This document shows positions 11,914 through 60,817 of a stretch of DNA of 60,817 nt, piece by piece; within the stretch, counting starts at the first letter, position 1; every line of letters starts with the position of its first letter. A program made the translations under genes and the position numbers. The notes below the pieces were generated by a model. That model searched no databases and was not told where the DNA came from. It was given only the letters and a program-made list of their open reading frames with translations. Source of the stretch: an uncultured Mucispirillum sp. (GTDB lineage Bacteria > Chrysiogenota > Deferribacteres > Deferribacterales > Mucispirillaceae); assembly GCA_944324465.1 (NCBI GenBank), contig CALUWI010000015.1, positions 1 to 60,817 on the forward strand. Direction: 5' to 3'.

Positions 11914-12543
11914 GTGTGTCTTATGATACTGCCGCATGGCTATGCACTGATAATGATGTCATTGGTAGTTAATTTATTAACTCTGCCAATTATGTCATGG
12001 GCAAAACATGTTGAAAATAAAGAAAGAGAAAAGCAGTTTAAAGTTAAGCAGGAAGTAATTGGCATAAAAAAACAGTATAAAGGCGAAGAAGCTTTTAGAA
12101 AGATAGATGCAGTCTATAAAAAATATCATTATTCTGCATTACTTGCATTCCGTGCAGATTTATCAATATTTCTTCAAATTCCCATATTTGTAGCAGCTAT
12201 TACAACTCTTGATAACAACCCTGTATTTAATAATGTTTCTTTTTGGATGATAGATAATCTTGGAGAGCCAGACCACTTATTTTTCGGCTGGAATTTTCTT
12301 CCATTTTTTATGACAGCAGTAAATTTAATTTCCATAAAATTATATAATAATGACAATAAATTTTTTGATAGAGCAAATATTAAATTGATAATAATTGCAT
12401 TACTTTTCCTTGTATATTTGTATGGAAGAAGTTCTGCACTTATGGTATACTGGACAAGTAATAATATTTTATCTACATTAATTATAGTATTAGGATTTGT
12501 CAATAAATATACAAAAGAGAAAGATGAGTCTTCTAATGGATAA
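11914..12543 (+). CDS. YidC/Oxa1-like membrane protein
   Basis: The protein resembles the conserved core of YidC/Oxa1 insertases: a first membrane helix (GYALIMMSLVVNLLTLPI), a charged cytoplasmic hairpin rich in Lys and Gln (KQFKVKQEVIGIKKQYKG), a second helix with FLQIPIFVA and two to three further helices ending in LMVYWTSNNILS, matching the YWxxNN signature. At about 209 residues it lacks the periplasmic domain of true YidC. The first in-frame canonical start is GTG 11914, which has no ribosome site; homologous-looking sequence (IEFIGHILYLICIFPFEYIFSL) continues in frame upstream to an ATA codon at 11839 that follows GAGGGT at 11827. It overlaps the next gene by 20 bases. A glycan-locus role is inferred from position. 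Confidence 0.78.
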   Translation: MCLMILPHGYALIMMSLVVNLLTLPIMSWAKHVENKEREKQFKVKQEVIGIKKQYKGEEAFRKIDAVYKKYHYSALLAFRADLSIFLQIPIFVAAITTLDNNPVFNNVSFWMIDNLGEPDHLFFGWNFLPFFMTAVNLISIKLYNNDNKFFDRANIKLIIIALLFLVYLYGRSSALMVYWTSNNILSTLIIVLGFVNKYTKEKDESSNG

Positions 12544-13390
12544 AAGATTAAATGTGGTTTTACTAATAGACAATGAGCCTCTTTATGCACCTTATGTAAT
12601 AAAGCAATTGCTTAGTGGTTTGAATGATAATTTAATATTAAAAGCTGTTGTTTTTACAGAAGGAAATTACCGCAAAATATCAGATAAACAAAATAAGCAG
12701 GAAATAAACAATTTATATGGCTCATTTAATAGTTTTATGTTGAATTTGTTTTATAGTTATAAGTCTGCAGTATTAAATAATGATGCAGAGAACAACTGCT
12801 TTAGAGTATTAGAAAAAGCTGGTATAGAATATAGAGTAACTAATAGAATAAATTCTGATGAAATAGTTGATTTTATAAAATCAAAAGAAATAGATATATT
12901 ATTTTCATTAACACATCATATATTAAAATCAAATATTCTAAATGCTCCAAAATTAGTATGTATCAACAGACATCCAGGTAAACTGCCAAAACATGCAGGT
13001 TTACAGCCTATTTTATATACTATGCTTGAACAAAAAGATAGCCAGCAGATAACTATTACGCAAACTATGCATACAATGGTAGAGCAAATAGATGCAGGAA
13101 AAATTTTAATAGAAACTGATTACAGTATACCAAGAAATTCGTCATTATTTTATGGTTACACTGTTGTATATAAAGATACTACCAGAATGTTTAATACTGC
13201 AGTAGAAAATTACTTATCAAACCAAATGTATACTCATGATATGAATCAGAGAAAATATTATTCTTTTCCAAATAAAGAAATATGCAAAGAATTCAGAAAA
13301 CTGTATAAGATATTCACTTGGAAAGAATACTTTAATAATATGGGATTAAAAGATAATATCAAACAAATAAATAGGGGGGGGGGTAAGTAG
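12524..13390 (+). CDS. Formyltransferase-family enzyme (probable sugar N-formyltransferase), poly-G tract at its 3' end
   Basis: The 288-residue protein has the formyltransferase core: CINRHPGKLPKHAGLQP with catalytic N148 and H150, and EQIDAGKIL with D190, the Asn-His-Asp triad that transfers formyl from N10-formyl-tetrahydrofolate. In this locus the likely acceptor is an amino sugar, as in VioF or WbtJ-type enzymes; this is inference. A frame opens at TTG 12497 but ATG 12524, just after AGAGAAAG, is more plausible. The gene ends within a run of ten G (13374-13383): with ten it stops at 13390; with nine it would add 11 further residues and stop at 13424, overlapping the next gene's ATG. Confidence 0.8.
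   Translation: MSLLMDKRLNVVLLIDNEPLYAPYVIKQLLSGLNDNLILKAVVFTEGNYRKISDKQNKQEINNLYGSFNSFMLNLFYSYKSAVLNNDAENNCFRVLEKAGIEYRVTNRINSDEIVDFIKSKEIDILFSLTHHILKSNILNAPKLVCINRHPGKLPKHAGLQPILYTMLEQKDSQQITITQTMHTMVEQIDAGKILIETDYSIPRNSSLFYGYTVVYKDTTRMFNTAVENYLSNQMYTHDMNQRKYYSFPNKEICKEFRKLYKIFTWKEYFNNMGLKDNIKQINRGGGK
13374..13383 (+). repeat. Homopolymer G10, candidate slipped-strand site
   Basis: Ten consecutive G in an AT-rich context, at the last codons of the formyltransferase gene. Nine, ten or eleven G give different C-termini: read-through to 13424, stop at 13390, or an immediate TAA. Confidence 0.85.
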
Positions 13391-45613: not shown

Positions 45614-48600
45614 ATGGGAAAAGAAACTAATGTTTTAAAATCATTAGAAGAAAGCTCAGTTTCAAGACGTTCCTTTTTAAAAGGCACAGCAGCTCTTGGT
45701 GCAATGGCTGCTATGTATGGCTGCTCTAAAGATGGCGGCTCAGAAATTATCTACGGGGGGGGGGAATAACAATAATACTCCTATAGTAGATGAAACACTT
45801 GAAGAAACAGTGTTTATGGGCTGTTCACCACACAACTGCGGTGGTGGTGCATGCGGAATTGCTGCCCATGTAGCAGGGGGCAGAGTAGTTAGGTTTACAA
45901 CAGATGACAGACCTGGCTATGATATGATAGATAATAAAGGTGTTTATGATTCTCAAAGAAGAGGCTGCGTTCGCTGCCGTTCTAAAAAACAATGGCTTTA
46001 TCGTCCAGACAGACTTTTATATCCATTAAAACAAACTAAAGAGCGTGGTGATTTATCAGGCTTTGTTAAAATTTCCTGGGCTCAGGCTGCAAGAGAAATT
46101 GCAGAAGAAATGATAAGGATTAAAAATGCTTATGGTCCAGAATCTTTCCATAGATTTTATTCAACTGGTGATGGTGCTGCATATCCTCGTTCTCGTCAAT
46201 TCTCTGCAAACCTTTTATTTGGTTTAGGCGGCGAATATGCTTACCATGATGACTATTCATTCCCTAGCTGGTACACAGCAGGTTACTTTACTTGGGGTAA
46301 CACTTACCCAGGTGCAAACTCTGCTCCAGATTTACAAAACTCAAAAGTAATTGTTTTATGGAGTGGTAACCCTTCTGAAATGATTGGTTCATGTAATGTT
46401 TCTTGGTATTTAACTCAAGCAAGAGATATGGGAGTACCCGTAATTTGTGTTGACCAGCGTATTTCTAAAACTGCATCTATGCTTGCAACTGGTGCAGGAA
46501 ATGTTCCAGCAGTAATCACTCCAGTTGGTGGAACAGATGGTGCATTAATTGCTGCTATGCTTTATCACTTAGTAAAAAAACATTTAGAAACAGTTGACAC
46601 TGGCGATATTTGGCAGACTACTAAATATTTAAACCCAAGAATGGTTGCTAAATATGTTCATGGTTTCTTTGATAATATACCTGCTTCAGGAGAAGGCTCT
46701 ACTTATTCTTATAAAGCAGCAAATAGTGAAACTAATTATCCAGTTGCAGATGGCGGCTCATATTCTGCATATATTTTTGGAAGTGAAAAAATAGCTTTTA
46801 ATAATAAAGCTTCTATTTATCCTGAAGAAATAGGCTATAATACAAGTGATGCTTTATTTGACTGGTATGCTGGTGTTGATGATGCAGGTAATATATTAAC
46901 AGAAAATAGAACAGATAATCTTCATGGCAAAAAAACTAAATGTTATGGTCAAACACCAAAAGATCCAGCATGGGCAGAAAAAATCACTGGTGTTCCTGCT
47001 GATACTATTAAAGCATTTGCAGAATATCTTGCAGAAGTTTCTTATAATAATGACTGGGGTGGTATTTCATTACTGCAGATTGGCGGTTTCCAAAGAAATA
47101 CAGAAGGCGAGCAAGGTATTAGAGCATTCTTTGTTCTTGCTGGTGTATTAGGCTGCTTTGGTAAAAATGGTGCAGCTTTTGGTAACCCATCAGCTTCTGC
47201 TGCAAAAGATGCAAGTGTATTACCATCATTTACTCCACATACTACTCCATGGGCAGATGGTAGCTTAAAAGCTAATATTAAAGCTGGTACAGGACTTCAA
47301 AGTATAGCTGCTGGTATCCCAAATATTCAAGCAAGGTTTGATGATACTAAATTAACAGATGCTGTTTCAAATAAAGAAGGAACTAACAGTTCATTCCCAG
47401 TATTTATGTGGCAGGATGCTATTGAAAAAGGCTCTACTGGTAAATCAAGATGGGGAGCTCCTGATGTAGCTAATGGTCCAGCTATTAAACTTATTTTTAA
47501 CTTTGGTGGTAACTGTGTAGTAAATCAGGCAGGTGATTACAACCTTACTACTCAAATCCTTAAAATGCCAAATGCTCAAACAGTATCAGAAGATGCTAAT
47601 TTCCCTAATAGAAAATATCAGTTAGAATTACTTGTAACATCTGATTTCTTTATGACTTCATCTGCTCAATATTCTGACTATGTTCTTCCTGCTTCTATGG
47701 CTTTTGAACGCAACTTTTATAAAACAGTAGATGATGCAGTTCATTTTTCACCAAAAGCAGTTGATGGTCCAGGTGAAGTATTATCTGACTATGAAATGAC
47801 TTGGAGAATCCATGATTATTTAGGCAGCAATTTCACAGGCGGCTTAACTAATGAAACTACAGAAGTTCGTGATGAACGCTTATTATTAAAAAGCATTTAT
47901 CATGCTCCTACTGCAGGTGAATATGCAGGTATGACTTTTGAAGAATTTGTTGCAAAAGGTCTTGTTACTTCTGGTACTCAAGTAAGTAACCCTATATCAA
48001 TCCAATGGAAAGCATTTAGAGAAGCACCAGGAACTCAAATAACAAATTCAAGTGGGAAACTCCAATATCCAGTAAATACTCCTACTGGTAAAATAGAAGC
48101 TTATTCTCAAGGTATGTGTGAATATTATGAAGCAAGAGGCTTTAATAATGATGATACAACAGTCCAGCTTGTAGGTGGTGGTTCTATTAAAACAAAAGGT
48201 TTTACACATACTAACGGTATGTATGTTTATCCAGTTCCTATGTATATACCTCTTGTTGAAGGTGTTCATGCTTCTAAAGAAGAAGGATATGCTCACCCAG
48301 ACCCATTAGGTACTGAAGCAAAAGGTTATACTTATCGTCTGCATAACTGGCACATGCAGTATCGTTCTCACTCTACATTAAACTCAAATGCATACTTAAA
48401 TGAGCTTTACAAAAAAGACATCAATGGTAACCCAGCATTTTACAGTTTAGACAGAGGTCAAAATAAAGTATATGGCGCAGATGCTGCTATATGCGATGAA
48501 AATGTTTACGAACCAGTATTTGTAAGCCCTAATACTGCTTCTGCTTTAGGCATTCCAGAAAAAGGTGCAAGAGTAGTTATTTATAACGACCGTGGTGCAA

Positions 48601-48830
48601 TATATGCTTATGCACAAATTTCTAAACTTATCCATGATGGTGAAATTATGATTGGTCAAGGTGCATGGGCTTCTGTAATTGATGAAACATTTACTACACC
48701 AGTTACAAATATTACTCACAAAATAGATACAGGCGGCTGTTCAAATACTCTTATGAGCATAAGACCTTCAAGAATATGCCAAGGTATGACATTATCAAAC
48801 GATACTAAAGTTGGTATCAAAGTTATATAG
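45614..48830 (+). CDS. DmsA-like molybdopterin oxidoreductase, Tat-exported, out of frame at a G10 tract
   Basis: GGAGGC precedes ATG 45614, which starts a Tat signal (SRRSFLK at residues 17-23, hydrophobic run, then YGC at 37, a possible lipid-attachment cysteine). In this copy ten G at 45755-45764 send that frame to TAA at 45767-45769 after 51 codons; the enzyme frame continues from the other side (also readable from a GTG at 45696 with no ribosome site). Nine G would give one 1071-residue protein. The body shows Fe-S motif CSPHNCGGGAC and a fourth Cys in RGCVRCRSKKQ, and HDDYSFPSWYTAG corresponding to the DmsA segment with the Mo-ligand Ser, so the reductase is of the DMSO/TMAO type. The C-terminal pterin-binding domain is complete. 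Confidence 0.88.
45755..45764 (+). repeat. Homopolymer G10 switching the Tat signal in or out of frame
   Basis: Ten G between the signal-peptide codons and the mature enzyme. The tract follows codons for EIIY in one frame and precedes codons for four Asn in the other. Loss of one G fuses the frames. Confidence 0.92.
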
Positions 48831-48841
48831 GAGATGAGAAT

Positions 48842-49471
48842 ATGCAATACGGATTTTATATAGACCAAACTCGCTGCATTGGCTGCCATGCTTGTGTAGT
48901 TGCTTGTAAAGATAGAAACGATATTTTACCAGGGCCTGTGGCTTTAAGAAAACTTTATGCAGAAGAACAGGGTACTTTCCCTACCTCTAATGTTATTAAT
49001 ACAACATTAAGCTGCAACCACTGTGCAGACCCAAAATGTATACCAGCATGTGCATATAATGCAATATACAAAGATGATGTGTTCGGTGCAGTAGTAGTTG
49101 ACAGAAATAAATGTCAAGGTGCTGGTTCATGTATTACAGCTTGCCCATATAAAGCAATTGACAGAGCTGATACTGGAGTAAATGCTAACCCTAACTATAC
49201 ACAGGAACCACAAAAAGGTATTTACTGGCAGGTAGACCACCCAGCTAATAAATGCGATATGTGCTTACCTTTAATCAAAAAAGGCGAAAAACCTACTTGT
49301 GTTGCAACATGCCCACAAAGAGCATTAGACTGGGGTCCAATCGATATGTTAAAATCAACATATCCTGATGCTGTAGATTATGTAGAAATCAATGTAAATG
49401 GTGCTAATATCTACGCAGACCCATCAGAAACACATCCATCTGTAATATTTAAAGCAAAAGCTCGTATATAA
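48842..49471 (+). CDS. DmsB-like four-cluster Fe-S subunit with one cysteine replaced by alanine
   Basis: The 209-residue protein has the four cysteine groups of DmsB: CIGCHACVVAC, CNHCADPKCIPAC, CQGAGSCITAC and CDMCLPL with a later CVATC. In the third group the second Cys is Ala (A94); spacing C91-A94-C97-C101 equals E. coli DmsB C99-C102-C105-C109. Mutation of that Cys in DmsB is known to give a [3Fe-4S] cluster, so this subunit probably carries one naturally. It lies 11 bases after the Mo subunit with AGGAGATGAG before the ATG and should relay electrons to it. Confidence 0.92.
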   Translation: MQYGFYIDQTRCIGCHACVVACKDRNDILPGPVALRKLYAEEQGTFPTSNVINTTLSCNHCADPKCIPACAYNAIYKDDVFGAVVVDRNKCQGAGSCITACPYKAIDRADTGVNANPNYTQEPQKGIYWQVDHPANKCDMCLPLIKKGEKPTCVATCPQRALDWGPIDMLKSTYPDAVDYVEINVNGANIYADPSETHPSVIFKAKARI

Positions 49472-49492
49472 GCTGTTACAGAAAAATAAATA

Positions 49493-49518
49493 CTCACCTG
49501 CTTATAAAGGCAGGTGAG
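49493..49518 (+). promoter_or_regulatory. Intercistronic hairpin between Fe-S subunit and chaperone genes
   Basis: CTCACCTGC (49493-49501) and GCAGGTGAG (49510-49518) form a perfect 9-bp stem with an eight-base loop, 14 bases before the chaperone ATG. No T run follows, so it is more likely a processing or stability element than a terminator. Confidence 0.65.
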
Positions 49519-49532
49519 CTTATGGAGTTGCA

Positions 49533-50213
49533 ATGCAGTTAAATGATGAAATAATAAGTATAATGCAGGGGAGAGAAGTAACCTATGCTGCAATGTCTGA
49601 CTTATTTCTTTCTCTTATTGAAGTAAAGCAGATAAAAATGCTGGAAGATTTAATGCCAATGTATGAAGAAATGGCAGAAAATACAGACAATCAGCATATA
49701 AAATATGGTGTATCATGCTTATCAGAAGTTGTAAACGAATATAAAAACAGCGATGATACAGCAAGGAAAAACTTATTAGAAGGTTACAGCAGAGAATATT
49801 CAAGGCTTTTCTGTCTTGGTAATGCTGCTGCAATATCAGAATCTGTATATGTTTCTCCACTGCACTTAACTATGCAGGAATCAGAACTTGAAGTCCGCAA
49901 TTTATATAAAATGTGCCATTTTGATATGAAACATACAGCGAATGAGCCACAGGACCATTTATCTTATGAGCTTATGTTTATGTCATACCTTTCAAAAGGA
50001 ACATATCAAAATATGAAAAAAGGCGATAATGCACAGGCTGAAAGTTTAATAAACCTGCAAAAAAGTTTTATAAAAGACCATCTTTTAAACTGGCTTGGTT
50101 ACTTTTCATCAAGCATAAAAAAATATAAAGAAGGTGATAGATTATATTATCCACTATCCTGCCTGCTTTTAGGCTTTATTGAAGAAGATAGTGCTTTTTT
50201 AGAAACTTTATAA
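49533..50213 (+). CDS. TorD/DmsD-family maturation chaperone
   Basis: The 226-residue, all-helical protein has the family landmarks EYSRLFCLG (residues about 88-96), SVYVSPLHLTMQESE and EPQDHLSYELMFMSYLS, the last being the conserved E-x-x-D-H motif. Such chaperones bind the Tat signal of their Mo-enzyme and hold it back until cofactor is inserted. It should serve the enzyme encoded at 45614. TGGAGTT precedes the ATG. Confidence 0.88.
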   Translation: MQLNDEIISIMQGREVTYAAMSDLFLSLIEVKQIKMLEDLMPMYEEMAENTDNQHIKYGVSCLSEVVNEYKNSDDTARKNLLEGYSREYSRLFCLGNAAAISESVYVSPLHLTMQESELEVRNLYKMCHFDMKHTANEPQDHLSYELMFMSYLSKGTYQNMKKGDNAQAESLINLQKSFIKDHLLNWLGYFSSSIKKYKEGDRLYYPLSCLLLGFIEEDSAFLETL

Positions 50214-50235
50214 AAAATATTAAGGAGTTAGGCCT

Positions 50236-51774
50236 ATGAAAAGGCTGATGTTAAATACATTAACATGTTTGTTAGCTTTAGCGCTCCCAGCTTTTGCTTA
50301 TGTTGGCGATGCATATGTTACACCAGACTCATGGAGTAAGCATGTAAATGCCAACGGCATCAAAGCAAGTCTTAACGGTTTAGATTTTGGTGATGCAGGG
50401 ATATTAAAAATAGGGTTAACAACAAGAGCCACAATGAAATTTGGCGAAGATGAAGACTGGTCAATCTATCAGTATGCAAGACTTAGATTAAGTGATGCAA
50501 AACTGGGACAAGGCACAGTGAATGTAAACTTAAATATGCGTGGAGCTTACGACAGCCTTCCAAGTATTGGCGGCAGCACAATGGACGGCATATCAGCAAC
50601 ACAGCAGGGAAGCGGATACAACCAGTTTTATGACGGACTTTATACATCAAGAAAATATGATGAATATACCCGCTTAAACGGTCAGTATGACGGTAACTTT
50701 AGAATATACCAGGCTAATGTAGAGTTTAAAAAAGTAGTGCCATATACAGATATAGCAGCGGGAAGAATCTACTTAAACAACTTAGATATGTATAAAATAG
50801 ACGGCGGCAGCCTTCATTTTGATACATGCGACTATTTCAAACTTGATGTATATGGTGGTTTACCTGTCAGCTATTACAGCAACTTAAAAACATCTGTAGT
50901 AGGTGCAGCAATAGAAGTGCCTGTATCTATAAGCGGCACAAAAATCAGAGCAGAATACAACTACTTTATGCATGAAGATGGCGGCGATTTCAATACACAT
51001 GTAGCCAAAGGCAGAATAGACCAGAACTTAAACTTTCCAGATATAATATCATCAAATATATATCTTGAAGGAGCAATAGTAGGTAAAGCAATGCTTTATG
51101 AAGCAGGCTTAGATGCTAATATTGATGCAAGCCGTACAGGAATATCAGCATATATAGCAGGTCAGTATGACAAAAATACAGGGGACATTAACCCATATGT
51201 ATCAATGTATGAAGATATGTTAGGTGGAAGTAGTGAATATGTAATGGGTGGCGTAATGCTGACACAAGGTATCACAGACTATGTAATAGTAGGCTTAGGC
51301 TGGGAAACAAGATTTAACTTTAGCGAAGCATACGGCGATAGAGATTATCAAAGAGTATTTGGTAATGTAGATTTTGTAGGCTTAATCCATAAAAACAACT
51401 ACTTAAGCTTAATAGTAGACTGGTACGATGTAGCAGAATACAAAAGACAGGACAGCAACTCAAAAGTAATGGGTGGATTTAGAATGACTCAGGTATTTAC
51501 CGACAGAATAGAAGCCTGGTTAGGTGTGAATGTGCAGAATTACCAGTATAGAAACAGCCCAATTAAATCATACCCACAGTATGGCGAAGAAATGCTGAAT
51601 TTAAGCGAAAGAAATGAAAATACAACAATGGCATACATTGGTGCAATGTATCGTCCAGTAGACTGGTGTGTATTACAGCTTGATTATACTTATGAATATG
51701 CAGATTTATTTAAAAGTGCGGACTTCCAGCCTGATATTCATACAGTAAGTATTTGGGCGAACTTTATCTGGTAG
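50236..51774 (+). CDS. Outer-membrane beta-barrel protein (porin-like)
   Basis: The 512-residue protein has a signal peptide (first 21 residues, LALPAFA) and many alternating hydrophobic/polar strands rich in Tyr, Asp and Gly (for example YQYARLRLSDAKLGQG, AWLGVNVQNYQYR, LQLDYTYEYADLF), ending in aromatic NFIW as outer-membrane barrels do. I cannot assign a subfamily. Its place between the reductase chaperone and a multihaem cytochrome suggests that it either carries substrate or, by analogy with Shewanella DmsF, houses electron transfer across the outer membrane. A close paralogue starts at 60742. Confidence 0.72.
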   Translation: MKRLMLNTLTCLLALALPAFAYVGDAYVTPDSWSKHVNANGIKASLNGLDFGDAGILKIGLTTRATMKFGEDEDWSIYQYARLRLSDAKLGQGTVNVNLNMRGAYDSLPSIGGSTMDGISATQQGSGYNQFYDGLYTSRKYDEYTRLNGQYDGNFRIYQANVEFKKVVPYTDIAAGRIYLNNLDMYKIDGGSLHFDTCDYFKLDVYGGLPVSYYSNLKTSVVGAAIEVPVSISGTKIRAEYNYFMHEDGGDFNTHVAKGRIDQNLNFPDIISSNIYLEGAIVGKAMLYEAGLDANIDASRTGISAYIAGQYDKNTGDINPYVSMYEDMLGGSSEYVMGGVMLTQGITDYVIVGLGWETRFNFSEAYGDRDYQRVFGNVDFVGLIHKNNYLSLIVDWYDVAEYKRQDSNSKVMGGFRMTQVFTDRIEAWLGVNVQNYQYRNSPIKSYPQYGEEMLNLSERNENTTMAYIGAMYRPVDWCVLQLDYTYEYADLFKSADFQPDIHTVSIWANFIW

Positions 51775-51786
51775 GGGGAATATATA

Positions 51787-52290
51787 ATGAAAATGAAATT
51801 ATTAATAATCGGTTTATTCTCTTTACTTATAGCAAGTGTATCCTTTGCAGTAGACAGCACAAAACCGTCCACACATAACAGCACTTGGGAGAAACAGCAC
51901 GGGCAGGCAGCTAAAACTAATATGAGTGAATGTTTAATGTGCCACGAAGAAAGAAGTGAATGTATAGCATGTCATGAAGATACAGCCCCAAGAAGCCATA
52001 CAGTAACTTTTGTGAATAAAACACACGGTTTAGAATCAAGGTGGAACAGGACAACATGCCAGACATGTCATAAACAAGATTTCTGTGATTCATGTCATGA
52101 AACAGCATATCCAATGAGCCATGCAAGAGCTAACTTTGCATCAGGAGTTCAAACTGACCCAGGCTCACACTGCGGCACAAGCTGTGTAATCCCTGTAGGC
52201 AACTGGAGCAATACACCAGCTAAAAACTGTATAGTATGTCATAAAACAAGACCAATGACAAAAGCTGGTGCTCTGCATACTATGAAGTAA
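51787..52290 (+). CDS. Periplasmic pentahaem cytochrome c
   Basis: The 167-residue protein has a signal peptide (about residues 1-21, ending VSFA) and five CxxCH haem motifs: CLMCH, CIACH, CQTCH, CDSCH and CIVCH, with additional His residues (RSHT, KTHG, MSHAR) placed to act as distal ligands. A further CGTSC pair has no His. It is the last gene of the first reductase operon and is a likely electron carrier to the Mo/Fe-S pair, replacing a DmsC/NrfD-type anchor. AGGGGGAA precedes the ATG. Confidence 0.9.
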   Translation: MKMKLLIIGLFSLLIASVSFAVDSTKPSTHNSTWEKQHGQAAKTNMSECLMCHEERSECIACHEDTAPRSHTVTFVNKTHGLESRWNRTTCQTCHKQDFCDSCHETAYPMSHARANFASGVQTDPGSHCGTSCVIPVGNWSNTPAKNCIVCHKTRPMTKAGALHTMK

Positions 52291-52610: not shown

Positions 52611-54308
52611 ATGAAATCTATAATACTTATTAATGCAAAAGAAATATCTTCTTTTTTTGATACTGGAGATGTAAATCCAGCTGTATCTACAATATGTGCA
52701 TGTCTTGAAGATGCTGGATTTAGTAATATATATGTTTTCCCAGAAACAGAGGAAGACTGTGATATTTTAAACTATGAAAAAAAACTTGAAAAGTTTTTAA
52801 AAAAATATGATGCAGAAGTTATTGGTATATCCTGCTGGACAAGTGGATATGGTATAGCATCAGATATGGCATCATTATGCAGAAAACTAAAACCAAATGT
52901 TGTGCTTGCTGCAGGCGGTCCACATTTTTCATCAGCAAAAGAAGCAGAGTATGCTTTAGAAAATAATATTTTTGATATAGTATTTAGAGGCGGTGCCACA
53001 CCCTTTATAGATTTCTGCCTAAATTATTTTTCAGGCAGTATTAATGTTTTAAAAAAGAATGATACTGCACAGCTTTCTGGAAATATTCCAGCTTCTGGAA
53101 TATGTTATAGAGATATAAATAATAATATAATTATCAATAAACATGGTTCATTAAATGCTGCAGTAAAGCCTGTAATAGAAGTTAATGATGATTATGCAGA
53201 AATAAGGCTTGTAGTAAAAGATGTATGTCCAAACCACTGTGATTACTGTGTAATTCATCCAGCAATAACTAAAAAGGAATATATAAAAGAGCAGCTTGAA
53301 TACTGCAGAGAATATTCAGATATAATTAAAAAAGAATTAAACAAAAAAATTCGGTTTGCCCTGGCAGACTCTGCCCCATTTGCTCTGAAAAATGAAATAT
53401 ATAATATTTTAGACAGCTTTAAAAATATAGATAAAAACTGTTCATTTGCTTTATTTGCTGACCCGGAAGATATAAATGATGAAATGTTTAATATTATAGA
53501 TAAGTATAATGTTTCATCGCTTTTTTTTGGCAGGGACAGAGTATATGCAGATGAATTACTAGGAAGAAGATATAAAGGTACACTTCGTAGCCAGCATATG
53601 CTTGATGAAGAATTTAATAAGCTGAAAAACCTTATAGCGTTTTTAGAAAAAAGAGATAAACCATTTGAAATATATCTAGGATATATTTTATCCCCTGTTG
53701 AAACTGCAGAATCTTCATTAATGCTTATGAATGAAATAAAATATTTTTTATTATATGAAAGCAAAAATGTTGCAATTCAGACAAATTTATTTGTATTAAA
53801 CCCATATCCAGATACAAAAGTAGGTGAAAGGTTTGAAAAAGAATATATTCCTATGAGATATTTTCATCATCCTTATCCAAATGTATGGAAAGGCAGTGAT
53901 AAAAACCACATACAGATAGAGCTTACCCGCTTTATTTTATCAAAGCTTTTATGCCGCAGTGAAGGGAAAGAGCTTTATGCACCTATGATAGATTTTATTC
54001 ATAAACTTCAGTTTGAAAATTATGCAGATATCAGCTTATGTGAAACTATCAAGGATAATAATTTAAAATCATTATGCAGATACATAATGAAAAAAATTGC
54101 AGAAAGAAATTTTATTTATAATGTAGAAAGTGATAAATATAGTGATGATATAGTATATTTTCATTTATTAGGCTGTATGATGCTTATTATGCTTACTCAT
54201 AAAGACTGGCTTGAAAAACAGTATTTTGAACAGGTAATGAATAAGATAGCAGAAAATGACGGAGTGCTTCCTCTTTTATTAAAAGATTTGGAAGCATTAA
54301 AGTTATAA
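52611..54308 (+). CDS. Radical SAM protein with B12-binding-like N-terminal domain
   Basis: The 565-residue protein has an N-terminal Rossmann-like domain (AEVIGISCWTSGYGIASDMA, VVLAAGGPHFSSAKEAEYAL) like the cobalamin-binding domain of B12-radical SAM enzymes, although no D-x-H-x-x-G base-off motif is visible. The radical SAM cluster is CPNHCDYC (C206, C210, C213). The C-terminal 150 residues are helical. The reaction is unknown. It sits alone between two reductase operons, 18 bases before the regulator gene, so a link to the pathway controlled there is possible. Confidence 0.78.
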   Translation: MKSIILINAKEISSFFDTGDVNPAVSTICACLEDAGFSNIYVFPETEEDCDILNYEKKLEKFLKKYDAEVIGISCWTSGYGIASDMASLCRKLKPNVVLAAGGPHFSSAKEAEYALENNIFDIVFRGGATPFIDFCLNYFSGSINVLKKNDTAQLSGNIPASGICYRDINNNIIINKHGSLNAAVKPVIEVNDDYAEIRLVVKDVCPNHCDYCVIHPAITKKEYIKEQLEYCREYSDIIKKELNKKIRFALADSAPFALKNEIYNILDSFKNIDKNCSFALFADPEDINDEMFNIIDKYNVSSLFFGRDRVYADELLGRRYKGTLRSQHMLDEEFNKLKNLIAFLEKRDKPFEIYLGYILSPVETAESSLMLMNEIKYFLLYESKNVAIQTNLFVLNPYPDTKVGERFEKEYIPMRYFHHPYPNVWKGSDKNHIQIELTRFILSKLLCRSEGKELYAPMIDFIHKLQFENYADISLCETIKDNNLKSLCRYIMKKIAERNFIYNVESDKYSDDIVYFHLLGCMMLIMLTHKDWLEKQYFEQVMNKIAENDGVLPLLLKDLEALKL

Positions 54309-54325
54309 ATATAAAGGAAATTATA

Positions 54326-55774
54326 ATGCCTGAAAGTAACATTGTATTAAAACATATAGAAATTGCGAAAAAGATTTATCAGTATATTCTTGATAATAAA
54401 ATACTAAAAGGTGATAAACTTCCTGGCGGCAGAACTTTTGCTGTTCAATATAATGTTAGTAAAAATACAGTATATGAAGCACTGGAGCTGTTGCAGGCAG
54501 ACGGCTATGTAATTATAAAAAAAGACAGCGGTACATTTGTTACTGATAAAATATGGAATACTGCTCTTTCAGGTGCACCTAACTGGGATGCATACATTAA
54601 TAACAGCTGGTCCCATAATAGAAACGAAATATTAGATAATGTATTTTGTGATGAAAGCAGAATAGAAGATGATGTTATATACTTATCTCAGGACTGTCTT
54701 GCATCTAAATTTAATGCATCTGCATATATAAATAAGGCTTTAGAGATTATTCCATATATTATCCAAAAAAATAAACTTTTTACCCAGTATATTTTTCAGG
54801 GCGACCCATTATACAGGAAAACCATTGCAGAGTATCTTAATAAACGGTGGAATACAGATATTGTGCAGAAAGAAAATATGATATTAACCCCGGGTATGCC
54901 AAACAGTATAGATTCACTTATCAGGGGCATTATCAGCAGGCATGATATTATTTATACTGAATCGCCAACATTTTTTCATGCTGTACCGCTGATTTTATCC
55001 CTTGGTCAGCAGGTTTCTGCAATAGAGTGTGATGAAGAAGGCATCTGTATTGATAAACTTTATAAAAATTTAAAAAGAAACGGAAGGCATATTATTTGTG
55101 TTACTCCAACCTGCAGATATCCAAATGGTAAAACAATGAGCCCGAAAAGGCGTCTTGAGCTGCTTGATTTCAGCTATGAAAATAAGATTCCTTTAATAGA
55201 ATTTGATAATATGTTTGATATGGAAAATATATTGCCGCCTTTATATGTGCTTGATAAACATAATATGGTAATTCATGCAGGAAGTATTGCTTATCCTTAT
55301 GCTTTTGGGCTTGGCATTGGCTGGATACTTGCACCAGAATATCTGCTTACAAGGCTTGCAGTTGTATCTATGGAAACAAACCACTATCCAGCTCAATTAA
55401 ACCATTTAATTACTTCTGTAATGCTTTCAGAAAATGTAAATGGGGGGGGGCTTTACAATCAGTTTGTTGACCAGTTTGTACCATTAAGAAATCATCATTT
55501 AGAAGAATGTGAAAAGCTGTTTAAAAAACATTTATCTAATATTGCATCATGGAACACATATAATGAAAGAGGACTTTATTATATTAAAATGGATAATGAT
55601 ATCAGTGTAAAAAAAATGATGAATTATAACAGTATGGTTCGCTTTGCTTCTGGCTCTATTTTTTCAAGTAACGATTCTCAATATATTCTTATTAATGGAC
55701 TTTCTCTTAGTTTGAAAAAATTAAATCAAGGTTTGGAAATTTTAAAATCTATTGCTTTAAAATCTAATAAATAA
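54326..55774 (+). CDS. GntR/MocR-type regulator with aminotransferase-like domain lacking the PLP lysine; contains a G9 tract
   Basis: The 482-residue protein has an N-terminal GntR winged helix (KGDKLPGGRTFAVQYNVSKNTVYEALELLQADGY) and a fold-type I aminotransferase-like domain (LTPGMPNSIDSLIRGI, TPTCRYPNGKTMSPKRR, EFDNMFD, WILAPEYLL). In MocR proteins the PLP lysine follows G-T-F-S; here the segment is GSIAYPYAFG (residues 319-328), with Tyr323 where Lys should be, so covalent PLP binding looks lost. Nine G at 55442-55450 encode three Gly (373-375); a change to eight or ten truncates the protein. It is 18 bases after the radical SAM gene and upstream of the second operon, which it may control. 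Confidence 0.82.
   Translation: MPESNIVLKHIEIAKKIYQYILDNKILKGDKLPGGRTFAVQYNVSKNTVYEALELLQADGYVIIKKDSGTFVTDKIWNTALSGAPNWDAYINNSWSHNRNEILDNVFCDESRIEDDVIYLSQDCLASKFNASAYINKALEIIPYIIQKNKLFTQYIFQGDPLYRKTIAEYLNKRWNTDIVQKENMILTPGMPNSIDSLIRGIISRHDIIYTESPTFFHAVPLILSLGQQVSAIECDEEGICIDKLYKNLKRNGRHIICVTPTCRYPNGKTMSPKRRLELLDFSYENKIPLIEFDNMFDMENILPPLYVLDKHNMVIHAGSIAYPYAFGLGIGWILAPEYLLTRLAVVSMETNHYPAQLNHLITSVMLSENVNGGGLYNQFVDQFVPLRNHHLEECEKLFKKHLSNIASWNTYNERGLYYIKMDNDISVKKMMNYNSMVRFASGSIFSSNDSQYILINGLSLSLKKLNQGLEILKSIALKSNK
55442..55450 (+). repeat. Homopolymer G9 inside the regulator gene
   Basis: Nine G, in frame, encoding Gly373-375. Ten G would end in a TGA within a few codons and eight G would reach a TAA shortly after, both removing about 105 residues. 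Confidence 0.88.
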
Positions 55775-55842
55775 CCGTCTGACTTTTTTTAAATCAACCG
55801 TCCTTGTAATATTTATAAATATTATATTACAGTATTATTATG

Positions 55843-55869
55843 AAAAGTAGAAATATGTTCTACTTTTTT
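55843..55869 (+). terminator. Intrinsic terminator after the regulator gene
   Basis: AAAAGTAGAA (55843-55852), five-base loop, TTCTACTTTT (55858-55867), then further T. Confidence 0.85.
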
Positions 55870-55957: not shown

Positions 55958-58900
55958 ATGAGTAATATTTCAAGGCGTTCTTTTTTAAAAGTTGGAGCAG
56001 CCCTTTCAGCCGCTGCAGCTTTTGGCTGTACTAAAGGTGATGAAGATGAGGTGTATACACCACTTTCACCACAGGATGATTTAGTTTTTGATACGGAAGA
56101 AAAAGTTGTATGCAGCAGTGGTGCTTATAACTGCGGCTCAAGGTGTCATCATAAAATTCATGTAAAAAATGGCAGAATGATAGCTATGACTTCTGCAGGT
56201 GATGTGCCTTATGATGCATGTAAAGAGTTAAATGAAAATAATCCAGATGAATTTGTTCATGATACACTTGCTACAATGTCAGAAGGTAAACAGGTGCAGT
56301 ACAGAGCCTGCGCAAGAGGTTATTCATATATTTCAAAAACTTATCAGCCAGACAGATTAAAATATCCATTAATCAGAGATGAAACTCTTGGTTTTCCAAA
56401 AGGTGATGTTCGCGGTTTCAGGCGTGCAACATGGGATGAAGCACTTAAAAAAGCAGTAAATATGATAGTTGCATCTTATAATGCATCAGATGATACAAAT
56501 ATTGGTTATGTAACAGGTACAGGCAGACAGTGGATACATTATAACCTTGTAGCTCGCTTTAGAAAAAAATTCCCATGGGTATGGTTTAATAATAACGAAT
56601 CAACAGGTAATACTGACGGTGCAAAATTTGACAGTATTGGCGGTACATCTAAATCTAACAGCAGAACAGACAGATTTAATTCAAAATTCATACTTACCTG
56701 GGGTCAGGATAACAGCAGCACTACTTTTTATCAAGTAAATGCATACTGGATGGAAACAAAAATAAGAGAAGATTTAAAAACTCCAATAGTTGTAATATCT
56801 TCTACATATAATGATGCTGCAGCAATGCTTGCAACAGGTGTTGAAGTAACTTATAAAAAATGGCAGCCATCAGATACAACAGCTGTACTTGGTCAGGAAA
56901 CAGAAGTATATCAAGAAAATTATATAGATGGTGATTTAGCATATCACAGCTATGAAATAACAGGTGGTGCAACAGGTGCATCAACAAAAGTACAGGTGCC
57001 TGCATGGGTTGCCTGCCGTCCTGCAACTGACGGTGCTTTAATGGTTGCAATGATGTATGTTATTTATAAACGGGGACTTTACGATAGGAAATTTTTACAA
57101 GATGCATGCTTTGGATTTTTTAAAGGGCAGGAAATTATAAGTACAGCACCAGCAAAATGTCAGGCAGGTATGCCGGTATGGGCACCACATGATGGTAAAA
57201 TAGGTGATACAGGCGACCAAATCAGTACAGGTAAAACATTTACAGGCAAAAAAATGGTAGTGCCTGCAGGATATTCATTTGAAGAATATTTGGAATCATT
57301 AGAACAGTCTACAGCAGCTGGCGGCTGGCTCAGCAGTGACGGCAGTGATGACAGCAATAAATATGCAGGCGTATTAAATTATGCTGCAAGACTTACAGGA
57401 GTATCTGCAGATATTATTGAAGCAATAGCCATAAAATATGCAGAAACAAAACCTGCATTTTTAGAAGCAGGCGGCGGCCCGCAAAGAGCATATAACGGTC
57501 TTGAATGGTGCTGGCTCTGTTTCTGCTTTGCTGCTATGTGCGGCCATACTAATAAAAGAGGCGGCGGTCCTGGTATGACAATGTACAGCACACCAGATGA
57601 AATGGTATATGAAGAAAGATTAAGCAGTGCATGGAACTCTGGCTCATCAAGGGTGGACCCATGGAGCGGTGCAACTATTGCAACAAACTTATCTGCATAT
57701 CCTCATACGGCTATTACTGGTAACGACTGGAGAACACCAGAACAGATAGTAGAAGCTGTAAAATTAGAAACAGCATGGTATGAAAACCCTCAAACTGGTG
57801 AATCAACTTATCCTTACGGAATAAGACCAAACGGTCCTATAGATGTATCTGGCAGAGAAAAACCTATTCAGTTAGACTGTTTTGTTGTAGTTCATGCAAA
57901 CTATATGGTATCTCAGGCAAATACTAATAAGTGGGCTGTTGCATTAAGAGACCATTTAAAATCATTGATTGTGGCAGATTTACACATGACACCTACTGCA
58001 AGATATGCAGATGTAGTGTTCCCTATTGCCAGCCATTTTGAAAGTGAATATTTTGGCGACCCATTTATTTTTGGTCCAACTGCAAGATTTTACCATGGTA
58101 AAGCAATAGAGCCAATGTATGAATGCTGGACAGAAGAAAAATTTGAACAGACTTTATGGTCTATGGTAAATGATGCATTAGGTATATCAAATGGCGATAT
58201 AACTGAAGGCGGTATTCCTGCATATATTGCAGAAACAGCAAGACCTTCAGGGGAAGCAACATATACAACAAGGATTGCGCCATCAACATACTATAAAGAG
58301 CTTGTTACAGAAAATGTTCAGACACCTTCATGGGAAGAATTAAAAAATAAAGGATTTTATGATTTAACAATCCCTGCTGATAAACCAATGGTAGGTATGC
58401 GTGATATAACAATCCCTGGCAGTGTAGACCCTAAAACAAATCAGGAAATTCCAGAAGACCATAAAATTGCTACATCAACAGGTCGTATAAACTTTTTCTC
58501 ACCATTCTGGTATCTGCGTATGCAGACATTAAAACAAGACCCTGCAAACCCTGCAAGTGCTGGTTTTAGAACTGCTACAGCTAAATATATACCAAATAGA
58601 GAAGGTTATGAAAAATTCTTTGCTGATATTGATTTGAAAAACTTTACAGGCTTTAAATCAGCAAACAGCCAAAGAACTTATAAACTGCTTTATTTATGCA
58701 ATAAACCAAGATATAGAGCTCAGTCAGTGCTTGATAATGTATCTATGATAAAAAATGAAGTAAAACACCATGGTGTTAGAATGAATGCAATAGATGCAGC
58801 AGAAAGAGGCATTAAAGACGGCGATTTAGTATATGTTTATAATGACAGAGGCTGTATAAAAGTTCATGCAGAAGTTTCATACAGGCTTCCACCTGGAGTT

Positions 58901-59140
58901 GTAAGTGTAGAACATGGTGTATGGTATAGACCTGCAACAGATGAAAATGAACAGGTAACAATTTGGATGTGTAAAAATAAAGATAATAAAACATATGAAC
59001 CTGTAAAAGTTCCTGTTGATTTAGGTGGCTGTGCAAATGTGTTAACTGATGACTGTTTTACATTAGACCCAACATTCTGTGTTCAGACTTTAGCAGCACA
59101 GGGCGGTCCATGTGAAGTCAGCTTAACAAAACCAGAGTAA
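55958..59140 (+). CDS. DmsA-like molybdopterin oxidoreductase, Tat-exported (second operon)
   Basis: The 1060-residue protein starts with a Tat signal (SRRSFLK, residues 5-11) ending in AFGC (Cys24, possible lipid-attachment site), then an Fe-S motif (VVCSSGAYNCGSRCHH and a later RACARGYS), the bis-MGD domains (TWGQDNSS, VVHANYMVSQANT, DLHMTPTARYADVVFPIAS) and a C-terminal domain (NDRGCIKVHAEVS, VSVEHGVWYRP). It is a paralogue of the enzyme at 45614 but clearly divergent. The first Cys of the Fe-S motif is six residues before the second rather than the usual two or three. GGGAGG precedes the ATG. The substrate cannot be read from sequence. Confidence 0.9.
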   Translation: MSNISRRSFLKVGAALSAAAAFGCTKGDEDEVYTPLSPQDDLVFDTEEKVVCSSGAYNCGSRCHHKIHVKNGRMIAMTSAGDVPYDACKELNENNPDEFVHDTLATMSEGKQVQYRACARGYSYISKTYQPDRLKYPLIRDETLGFPKGDVRGFRRATWDEALKKAVNMIVASYNASDDTNIGYVTGTGRQWIHYNLVARFRKKFPWVWFNNNESTGNTDGAKFDSIGGTSKSNSRTDRFNSKFILTWGQDNSSTTFYQVNAYWMETKIREDLKTPIVVISSTYNDAAAMLATGVEVTYKKWQPSDTTAVLGQETEVYQENYIDGDLAYHSYEITGGATGASTKVQVPAWVACRPATDGALMVAMMYVIYKRGLYDRKFLQDACFGFFKGQEIISTAPAKCQAGMPVWAPHDGKIGDTGDQISTGKTFTGKKMVVPAGYSFEEYLESLEQSTAAGGWLSSDGSDDSNKYAGVLNYAARLTGVSADIIEAIAIKYAETKPAFLEAGGGPQRAYNGLEWCWLCFCFAAMCGHTNKRGGGPGMTMYSTPDEMVYEERLSSAWNSGSSRVDPWSGATIATNLSAYPHTAITGNDWRTPEQIVEAVKLETAWYENPQTGESTYPYGIRPNGPIDVSGREKPIQLDCFVVVHANYMVSQANTNKWAVALRDHLKSLIVADLHMTPTARYADVVFPIASHFESEYFGDPFIFGPTARFYHGKAIEPMYECWTEEKFEQTLWSMVNDALGISNGDITEGGIPAYIAETARPSGEATYTTRIAPSTYYKELVTENVQTPSWEELKNKGFYDLTIPADKPMVGMRDITIPGSVDPKTNQEIPEDHKIATSTGRINFFSPFWYLRMQTLKQDPANPASAGFRTATAKYIPNREGYEKFFADIDLKNFTGFKSANSQRTYKLLYLCNKPRYRAQSVLDNVSMIKNEVKHHGVRMNAIDAAERGIKDGDLVYVYNDRGCIKVHAEVSYRLPPGVVSVEHGVWYRPATDENEQVTIWMCKNKDNKTYEPVKVPVDLGGCANVLTDDCFTLDPTFCVQTLAAQGGPCEVSLTKPE

Positions 59141-59152
59141 TGGAGGTAGAAT

Positions 59153-59962
59153 ATGAGTCAATGGGGATTTTATTTTAATCAAGATAGATGTTTAGGCTGC
59201 CTTACATGTAAAATGGCCTGCAAAAACTGGAATGAAAAACGCAGAGGCGATGCATCAATAAATATTCGCTCATATCTGCAGGATAATCAAGAGTATGCAT
59301 CAGAGCAAAATGGCGGCGAATATGGTGTTGGCTTAGGTCAGGAAGAAAATCAAAATATATATCTTGATAGTGAAGGCAGAAGCAACTATGAAGAATTTAA
59401 TAAATTCTATATGAAAGAAGACTGGCGTCGTGTTGAAACATACGAATATGGCACATGCTCATTAGATAAATCTACAAATACATTTGTGCAAGGTGTGGAT
59501 AGAAGATATCTTACTATATCTTGCAACCACTGTTCTGACCCAGTATGTGTTAAAGTATGCCCAATGGGTAACATTAGAAAAGACCCTGTTACTGGTGCTG
59601 TATTAGTGGTTAGTTATGAAAGCTGTATTTCATGTGGAAAATGTAAAGAAGCATGCCCATGGGATGCTCCACAGTTTTATGATAATAATTTTGCAGCATA
59701 TAAACAGGATGACCCAAAAAGACCAAAAATGACAAAATGCACATTATGCGTAGATAGAATATCTGTTGGTTTAAAACCTGCATGTGTGGCTGCCTGCTGG
59801 AACAGAGCTCTTGATGCAGGCCCTGTAGAAGAACTTATTGCAAAATATGGTGAAGGAAATATTACAACTACTTTACCAGAATTTAAAAGCAGCCAGACAC
59901 CACTTGGTGATACTCAGCCAAATATTTTCTTTAAGAAAAAAACAGACAGAATACGCAAATAA
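59153..59962 (+). CDS. DmsB-like four-cluster Fe-S subunit (second operon)
   Basis: The 269-residue protein has all four Cys groups: CLGCLTCKMAC, CNHCSDPVCVKVC, CISCGKCKEAC (complete, unlike the first operon's subunit) and CTLCVDR with CVAAC. It is about 60 residues longer, mainly through an acidic insertion after the first cluster (residues about 38-105). It lies 12 bases after the Mo subunit behind GGAGGTAG and should carry electrons to it. Confidence 0.92.
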   Translation: MSQWGFYFNQDRCLGCLTCKMACKNWNEKRRGDASINIRSYLQDNQEYASEQNGGEYGVGLGQEENQNIYLDSEGRSNYEEFNKFYMKEDWRRVETYEYGTCSLDKSTNTFVQGVDRRYLTISCNHCSDPVCVKVCPMGNIRKDPVTGAVLVVSYESCISCGKCKEACPWDAPQFYDNNFAAYKQDDPKRPKMTKCTLCVDRISVGLKPACVAACWNRALDAGPVEELIAKYGEGNITTTLPEFKSSQTPLGDTQPNIFFKKKTDRIRK

Positions 59963-60020: not shown

Positions 60021-60698
60021 ATGGACAGCATTAAAGAATATTTCAATCTGCATAATAGAATGTTAAGGATTTTTTCGCAGGTATTTTATAAAGAGCCTGA
60101 CATTCATTATTTAGAAGTTATAAAAAAATATATTCCTGTATTAGAAGAAATTAGTAAAGAATATAAGATTAAAATGCTGGATAATGGAATAAAAAATTTA
60201 AAAACCTTTTTTAATAATAATCAGTTAGATGAAAAACACATAAAACAGTATGCAGCAGAATTTGCACAACTGTTTTTAAGTGTTGGTATATCTGTTGGTA
60301 AAAAAAGTATTATTCCGCAGGAATCAGTATATTTATCTCCGTCTGGCCTTTCTATGCAGGATGAAAGAGATGAGGTGCTGCAGTTTTATTACATATACAA
60401 CATTGGTAAAGAAAAAGATTTCAAAGAGCCTGAAGACCATATTTGTGCTGAAATTTATTTTATCAGTATGCTTGGTGATAAAGCTGTAGAAAATATTGAA
60501 ACAGCAGAGGATTTAAAAAGCAGCCAGTATTTAAATGCTATAATAGATTTTATGGATAGACATTTATTAAAATGGCTGCCTATGGTGGAAAAAGATATGT
60601 GCAGTTTAACAGACAATCTTTATTTCCAAGGTTCTGTTCAAGTAATATATGGGCTTTTACTTTTAGAAAAAGAAATGATTAGCGATTTATTAAGCTGA
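60021..60698 (+). CDS. TorD/DmsD-family maturation chaperone (second operon)
   Basis: The 225-residue helical protein repeats the landmarks of the chaperone in the first operon: YAAEFAQLFLS, ESVYLSPSGLSMQDE and EPEDHICAEIYFISML. It presumably serves the enzyme encoded at 55958. AGAGGC precedes the ATG. Confidence 0.86.
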   Translation: MDSIKEYFNLHNRMLRIFSQVFYKEPDIHYLEVIKKYIPVLEEISKEYKIKMLDNGIKNLKTFFNNNQLDEKHIKQYAAEFAQLFLSVGISVGKKSIIPQESVYLSPSGLSMQDERDEVLQFYYIYNIGKEKDFKEPEDHICAEIYFISMLGDKAVENIETAEDLKSSQYLNAIIDFMDRHLLKWLPMVEKDMCSLTDNLYFQGSVQVIYGLLLLEKEMISDLLS

Positions 60699-60741
60699 TA
60701 AGTTTAAAAAGCACAATTATTATGAAAGTTAGGAGAGTTAT

Positions 60742-60817
60742 ATGAAAAGGCTGATGTTATATACATTAACATGTTTGTTAGCGTTATCACTTCCTGCTTT
60801 TGCTTATGTTGGTGATG
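60742..60817 (+). CDS. Outer-membrane beta-barrel protein, N-terminal fragment (3' end outside window)
   Basis: The 25 codons visible encode MKRLMLYTLTCLLALSLPAF and then AYVGD, nearly identical in protein and DNA to the start of the barrel gene at 50236, including the signal peptide. AGGAGAG precedes the ATG. The second operon therefore continues in the same order as the first. Confidence 0.85.
   Translation, partial: MKRLMLYTLTCLLALSLPAFAYVGD

Follow-up and report, generated by a model that had tools for sequence, protein, structure and literature searches.

A candidate phase-variation G tract in a MocR-type regulator gene adjoining a DmsA-like reductase operon of Mucispirillum

Between two reductase operons of an uncultured Mucispirillum sp. 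lies a regulator gene that carries nine consecutive G residues within its coding sequence. This raises the question of whether the tract could act as a reversible switch and, if so, which of the two neighboring operons it would serve.

The regulator gene and its nine-G tract

The window, meaning the whole stretch of DNA analyzed here, is a contig of 60,817 bases from a 2.42-Mb genome in 31 contigs (G000). As the preliminary description had it, the MocR open reading frame (ORF; 54326-55774) sits between two reductase operons. Both operon 1 (45696-52290) and operon 2 (55958 to the contig end) are of the DmsA type, each encoding a DmsA/YnfE-like molybdopterin reductase with DmsB-like and TorD-like partners. 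The features of the region are as follows.

45755..45764, + strand: operon 1 tract, G10, between the Tat leader (ATG 45614) and the enzyme; leader and enzyme frames differ (OFF)
52611..54308, + strand: B12-binding/radical-SAM-like gene, 17 bases upstream of the MocR gene
54326..55774, + strand: MocR/GabR-type regulator gene, 482 aa, in frame (ON) in the assembly; Pfam GntR and Aminotran_1_2
54359..54541, + strand: winged helix-turn-helix domain, aa 12-72, with recognition helix SKNTVYEALE
55433..55450, + strand: five-residue lineage-specific insertion that includes the tract, about aa 370-374 (alignment and AF2 model)
55442..55450, + strand: G9 tract, codons 373-375 (Gly-Gly-Gly) of the MocR gene
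55775..55809, + strand: operator-like direct repeat CCGTC-N18-CCGTCC, then TTGTAA, immediately 3' of the MocR stop codon, ahead of operon 2
55843..55867, + strand: hairpin with 10-bp arms AAAAGTAGAA/TTCTACTTTT, then a T-run
55958..59140, + strand: operon 2 catalytic subunit, a DmsA/YnfE-like molybdopterin oxidoreductase with a Tat signal and without a G tract
59153..59962, + strand: operon 2 iron-sulfur subunit, DmsB-like
60021..60698, + strand: operon 2 TorD/NarJ-type chaperone
60741..60817, + strand: next gene of operon 2, start only (512-aa putative membrane anchor), cut by the contig end

The B12-binding/radical-SAM-like gene and the MocR gene are probably cotranscribed, and the hairpin at 55843-55867 is a possible MocR terminator or leader element. 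Operon 2 has a MopB protein of the Tat-exported type (signal predicted), an Fe-S subunit, and a chaperone, and the truncated start of its anchor gene shares 93.5% identity with the operon 1 copy in another genome of the same genus (G003). In operon 1, the 512-aa protein encoded 3' of the core genes matches no Pfam or NCBIfam family and is taken to be a putative membrane anchor from its position in the operon.

The nine G residues at 55442-55450 encode Gly373 to Gly375 of the 482-aa ORF, exactly as described earlier: in frame, as three glycines, and within the aminotransferase-like domain of a GntR/MocR protein. Shortening to G8 yields a product of 386 aa and lengthening to G10 one of 381 aa, while G6 or G12 preserves the frame. 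A one-base slip therefore costs about 107 native residues (376-482), close to the 105 or so first estimated. Gly-Gly-Gly stretches elsewhere in the window genes examined are written in mixed codons, the tract alone reading GGGGGGGGG, and GGG makes up 7% of Gly codons. The tract is thus a homopolymer far longer than expected in which a one-base change alters the product, and its having the sequence hallmarks of a slipped-strand contingency tract is supported. It was seen in this gene once; the nearest orthologue (L066, 47% identity) does not carry it, no intact close orthologue of the MocR gene was present in the other nine Mucispirillum genomes, and no relatives of the MocR locus were found among named genomes.

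Assignment of the protein to the MocR type, made earlier from the sequence, was upheld by Pfam matches to a GntR helix-turn-helix (E 8e-13) and to Aminotran_1_2 (E 4e-8), both over cut-off, whereas NCBIfam PdxR/MocR matches fell below their cut-offs. The protein fuses an N-terminal GntR winged helix-turn-helix to a fold-type-I aminotransferase domain, and its best full-length fold matches were GabR chains (top E 2e-26), with a whole-chain rmsd of about 12 A that is so large that only the domains, not their arrangement, are matched. At the position of the lysine that forms the aldimine with PLP (the SK position of GabR) the window protein has Tyr323, making it MocR-like in architecture but not a PLP-dependent MocR. 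This PLP-binding lysine is missing from 20 of 22 aligned MocR-type proteins, so the lysine-less branch probably responds to a signal different from a PLP adduct, or to none. The five-residue insertion with the tract, found only in the window protein among these 22, stands directly before a nearly invariant Gly-x-Tyr (Gly375, Tyr377), and the AF2 model (mean pLDDT 85) places it in a loop between helices 357-367 and 376-403. As the insertion is unique in the alignment and its predicted position is a loop, the tract would have grown where a change of length is tolerated; on this model it is a derived insertion in a length-tolerant loop, and a slip there is predicted to remove the whole C-terminal subdomain.

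Poly-G tracts across the genome and its relatives

In the whole genome, both strands taken together, 35 runs of at least 8 G were observed, against about 3.6 expected from an order-1 Markov estimate. The length spectrum of G runs is bimodal (seven runs of G6, none of G7, two of G8, 24 of G9, eight of G10, and one of G11), which rules out a chance G run. Exact G9 runs number 18 to 37 in each of seven of the nine other Mucispirillum genomes, with 10 and 2 in the remaining two, one of which is 57% complete. The count is 60 in a genome of a sister genus (G011), 2 in a further genome of the family (G010), and between 0 and 4 in each genome from the order's other families. The poly-G excess is common to the genus and the sister genus and near zero in the other families of the order. 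Genes for MutS and MutL are present in the genome, so slippage need not be fast.

The genome contains 12 molybdopterin-oxidoreductase genes, five of them without a tract. An N-terminal tract is carried by six of the seven accessory DmsA-like reductases; the seventh, that of operon 2, has none, but its MocR gene does. In operon 1, the leader starts at ATG 45614 (MGKETNVLKSLEESSVSRRSFLKG...GCSKDGGSEIIYGGGE, then a stop after GGGE; leader region 45614-45769), and the enzyme, of 1,021 residues (45755-48830), is in a frame different from that of the Tat leader. An in-frame operon 1 tract is thereby ruled out, and the enzyme reads as OFF in the assembly; the regulator tract had been labeled the second in-frame one, a label that fails because the G10 at 45755-45764 is out of frame with the Tat leader of its enzyme. 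Operon 1 in G003 has the same OFF state and the same tract length.

Across four genomes (G000, G003, G006, and G011), 11 leader tracts are in frame and 15 out of frame, a count that leaves out the pair L009/L120, whose ON/OFF state is ambiguous. In two orthologue pairs (L124/L143 and L023/L118), net indels at the tract change the frame from one member to the other. Tract length is the same across two or three species, on the other hand, in groups B and D and in operon 1, as would be expected if slippage is slow. The comparisons indicate that tract lengths change, but not at every locus between species. The G9 and G10 of L009/L120 were considered as a further case of slippage and rejected, the difference being a T-to-G substitution at the tract edge with the length unchanged. 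In this pair the reductase tract (L009:4001-4009 and its counterpart in L120) precedes the Tat motif and lies beside a possible TTG/GTG start, so its effect may be on the start of translation rather than inside the leader.

Long G runs were also noted in genes of other kinds. Tracts of G9 or G10 occur in two genes for N6/N4 DNA methylases and in one for a type I specificity subunit (L010:2655-4028, L029:3317-5197, and L026:3355-4542), one of the tract-bearing methylases being out of frame with the upstream frame and one in frame; these are candidate phase-variable methylation systems. At L021 (G000:C9:107667-127070), seven tracts of G9 to G11 fall within 14 kb, and the two tract-bearing genes checked encode a family 2 glycosyltransferase and an MBOAT acyltransferase, which suggests a variable surface-polysaccharide locus. 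In the window itself, a G10 at 13374-13383 lies at the extreme 3' end of ORF 12497-13390, where the effect of a slip would be limited to the final residues or to fusion with the following frame.

The link between the regulator and operon 2

When the intergenic sequences were set side by side, a shared direct repeat, CCGTC-N18/19-CCGTCC, was found, followed by (T/C)TGTAA. The 2.4-Mb window genome has a single match to the pattern CCGTC-N17-20-CCGTCC, at 55775-55803, in the space that separates the MocR gene from operon 2; shuffling the window 100 times produced no match. Within the window, neither the MocR gene nor the B12 gene is preceded by the repeat, which stands in front of operon 2 only. 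It is shared without mismatch with MocR-linked sites in L066, L067, and L070; in G011, perfect matches occur upstream of two MocR genes on contig C48 and of the gene on C62, and also downstream of the gene at the C48 end. Of 13 further MocR genes examined, none had a perfect match within 300 bases, and two had matches with one mismatch. In a promoter scan, the region gave no more matches than shuffled sequence did.

The recognition helix SKNTVYEALE is common to the four site-bearing genes, namely the window MocR gene and three of G011. A fifth gene (C18), with the near-same helix GKNTVYEALE, has no site, and the other 12 genes have neither helix nor site. Because the site-bearing genes are close paralogues, this association of helix and operator is supporting rather than independent evidence, and because the pattern was derived from some of the same sites, its presence there is partly by construction. 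Isolated matches mean little in G011, whose whole genome gave 25 against 12 for a reversed control pattern. The independent part of the repeat evidence is the single occurrence in the 2.4-Mb window genome.

Among the dozen MocR matches of G011, two genes have tracts of their own. At L067 (G011:C62), a G9 run lies in frame within the MocR gene at about aa 420; at L068 (G011:C18), a G9 run lies where the MocR frame breaks, and a second frame break is found upstream in the gene. Each of these genes is directly upstream of an operon 2-type reductase without its own tract, the two reductases being 39% identical to the operon 2 enzyme of the window, whereas the tract-free MocR genes L070, L072, and L073 neighbor reductases with a G9 in or behind the Tat leader. 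Tracts thus recur at three different C-terminal sites of MocR genes, all directly upstream of operon 2-type reductases. A rule of one tract per module, never two, holds for every tract-bearing module seen in G011 but is compatible with chance (rough hypergeometric by hand, P about 0.24, with few modules) and was set aside.

G003 keeps the B12-binding/radical-SAM-like gene, but only about 65 codons of its MocR gene are left. The operator pattern is absent from that genome, no relative of operon 2 passing E 1e-60 was found in it, and the operon 2 position is held by a different reductase operon with a G9 leader tract of its own. In this single comparison, then, regulator, operator, and operon 2 are present or absent as a set. 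The leader of the replacement operon (G003:C10:45000-70566; L064, L065) is 92% identical to that of operon 1, and its 512-aa and 167-aa genes are 95 to 98% identical to those of operon 1, while the catalytic genes differ, a pattern suggesting that cassettes are exchanged by way of shared flanks. The end of the window contig likewise falls in the 512-aa gene repeat.

By repeat and neighborhood, the connection of the MocR gene with operon 2 is well supported. Control of the 55958 operon by this regulator, considered in the preliminary description, is very probable in view of the operator-like repeat shared with the nearest MocR genes; binding to it, and the direction of the effect, we infer. The accompanying idea of layered control over one system is not supported, since the repeat stands before operon 2 alone and the G10 tract is that of operon 1, a layout that would make two parallel switches of different operons.

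A proposed switch, its alternatives, and known systems

We consider it fairly probable that operon 2 has a dedicated activator of the MocR type and that the G9 run, located in the C-terminal domain of this protein, is its phase-variation (contingency) tract. With nine G, the 482-aa regulator would be made in full, would bind the direct repeat at 55775-55803 beside the -35-like TTGTAA, and would turn the DmsA-like reductase operon at 55958 on. If replication slipped to G8 or G10, a short off-frame tail would stand in place of the final ~107 residues; the aminotransferase-fold domain would be destroyed and the whole operon reversibly switched OFF. The regulator tract would then play the role of the G tracts behind the Tat leaders of other accessory reductases.

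Sequence alone is compatible with either an activator or a repressor, and the main rival is a repressor of operon 2 whose slippage would leave the operon constitutively ON. Some MocR proteins, such as EnuR, are repressors (PMC8739950), and a protein bound at a repeat that abuts the -35-like TTGTAA could block polymerase; yet GabR activates its target genes (PMC6917764; likewise PDB titles), and in the leader-tract reductases a lost frame means an OFF enzyme. We regard repression as unlikely, although a possibility to be taken seriously. It is quite improbable that the MocR protein is a local or autogenous regulator whose adjacency to operon 2 is incidental. The sister-genus MocR genes that carry the repeat upstream of themselves would fit that explanation, but in the window the repeat is missing upstream of the MocR gene and of the B12 gene, and the MocR gene with an operon 2-type reductase is a recurring pair.

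The tract might also be effectively stable, the poly-G excess reflecting a lineage mutational bias and the run only encoding a Gly-rich loop. The presence of MutS and MutL and the identical lengths at several orthologous reductases across species accord with this, but a spectrum in which G7 is absent and G9 and G10 abound is no composition bias, glycine triplets elsewhere use mixed codons, out-of-frame leader tracts outnumber in-frame ones (15 OFF, 11 ON), and two orthologue pairs differ by frame-flipping indels; we therefore hold a stable tract to be improbable. Those same two pairs, being DNA length changes over evolution, argue against transcriptional or ribosomal slippage that would produce a fixed mixture of full-length and truncated regulator from unchanged DNA. 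That explanation would account for G9 being the dominant length in both in-frame and out-of-frame genes and for OFF states common to three species (group B), which low-level slippage could rescue, and we rate it the least probable of all.

The MocR tract may belong to a wider pattern. Mucispirillum and the sister genus may have a combinatorial, stochastic anaerobic respiratory repertoire, in which almost every accessory DmsA-like reductase would have a poly-G switch of its own, either between Tat leader and enzyme or, for an enzyme without one, in a dedicated lysine-less MocR; we hold this proposal to be about as likely as not. If true, one clone would be a mixture of cells using different electron acceptors; the species seems to gamble on which acceptors it can breathe. 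The best-known targets of phase variation are surface structures and restriction-modification systems; here energy metabolism is apparently targeted. The papers searched contained nothing on phase variation in Mucispirillum, nor any work that connects DMSO reductase with phase-variable homopolymer tracts, and the words "homopolymer" and "slipped" are absent from the text of the M. schaedleri genome paper (PMC5285517). Mucispirillum is a gut genus linked to inflammation, and an uncharacterized DMSO-reductase-like system of M. schaedleri is upregulated in inflamed mice (PMC5285517). If tracts switch acceptor use, bulk expression and growth data on the genus would average hidden subpopulations. 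A switch in the regulator beside switches in enzymes would also offer a natural comparison of two routes to a switchable operon.

The closest working analogue of the MocR tract is the poly-C tract in the gene for the regulator Mga of Streptococcus pyogenes, where slippage was shown experimentally (PMC10330708). Each is a C/G homopolymer of about 8 residues within the 3' portion of a gene for a regulator, and a one-base slip that alters the C-terminal end and reversibly switches the regulated gene, shown for Mga, would have its counterpart in MocR. The regulator families differ, as do the targets, a surface protein in the one case and a respiratory operon in the other. With MocR, GabR, and PdxR the window protein shares a GntR-type helix-turn-helix and an aminotransferase-fold domain, its fold matching GabR and PdxR. 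Direct-repeat operators have been reported for MocR-type regulators (PMC4944035), and the repeat before operon 2 is a candidate for one. The window protein differs in having Tyr323 for the PLP lysine and a phase-variation-type tract. Operon 2 resembles DmsA/YnfE-type DMSO/selenate reductases in its catalytic MopB, DmsB-like Fe-S subunit, and TorD-type chaperone, but its scores are far below equivalog cut-offs, so that "-like" names no substrate, and its expression appears to be switched by poly-G tracts. Homopolymer contingency loci are known from epsilonproteobacteria and other bacteria, for example Helicobacter bizzozeronii (PMC3234257), and the Mucispirillum genome is similar to genomes with such loci in having tens of long homopolymer runs, many of them within genes, glycosyltransferase and DNA-methylation genes included; it differs in that accessory molybdopterin reductases form a major class of targets, where the tract follows the Tat leader or, once, lies in a regulator.
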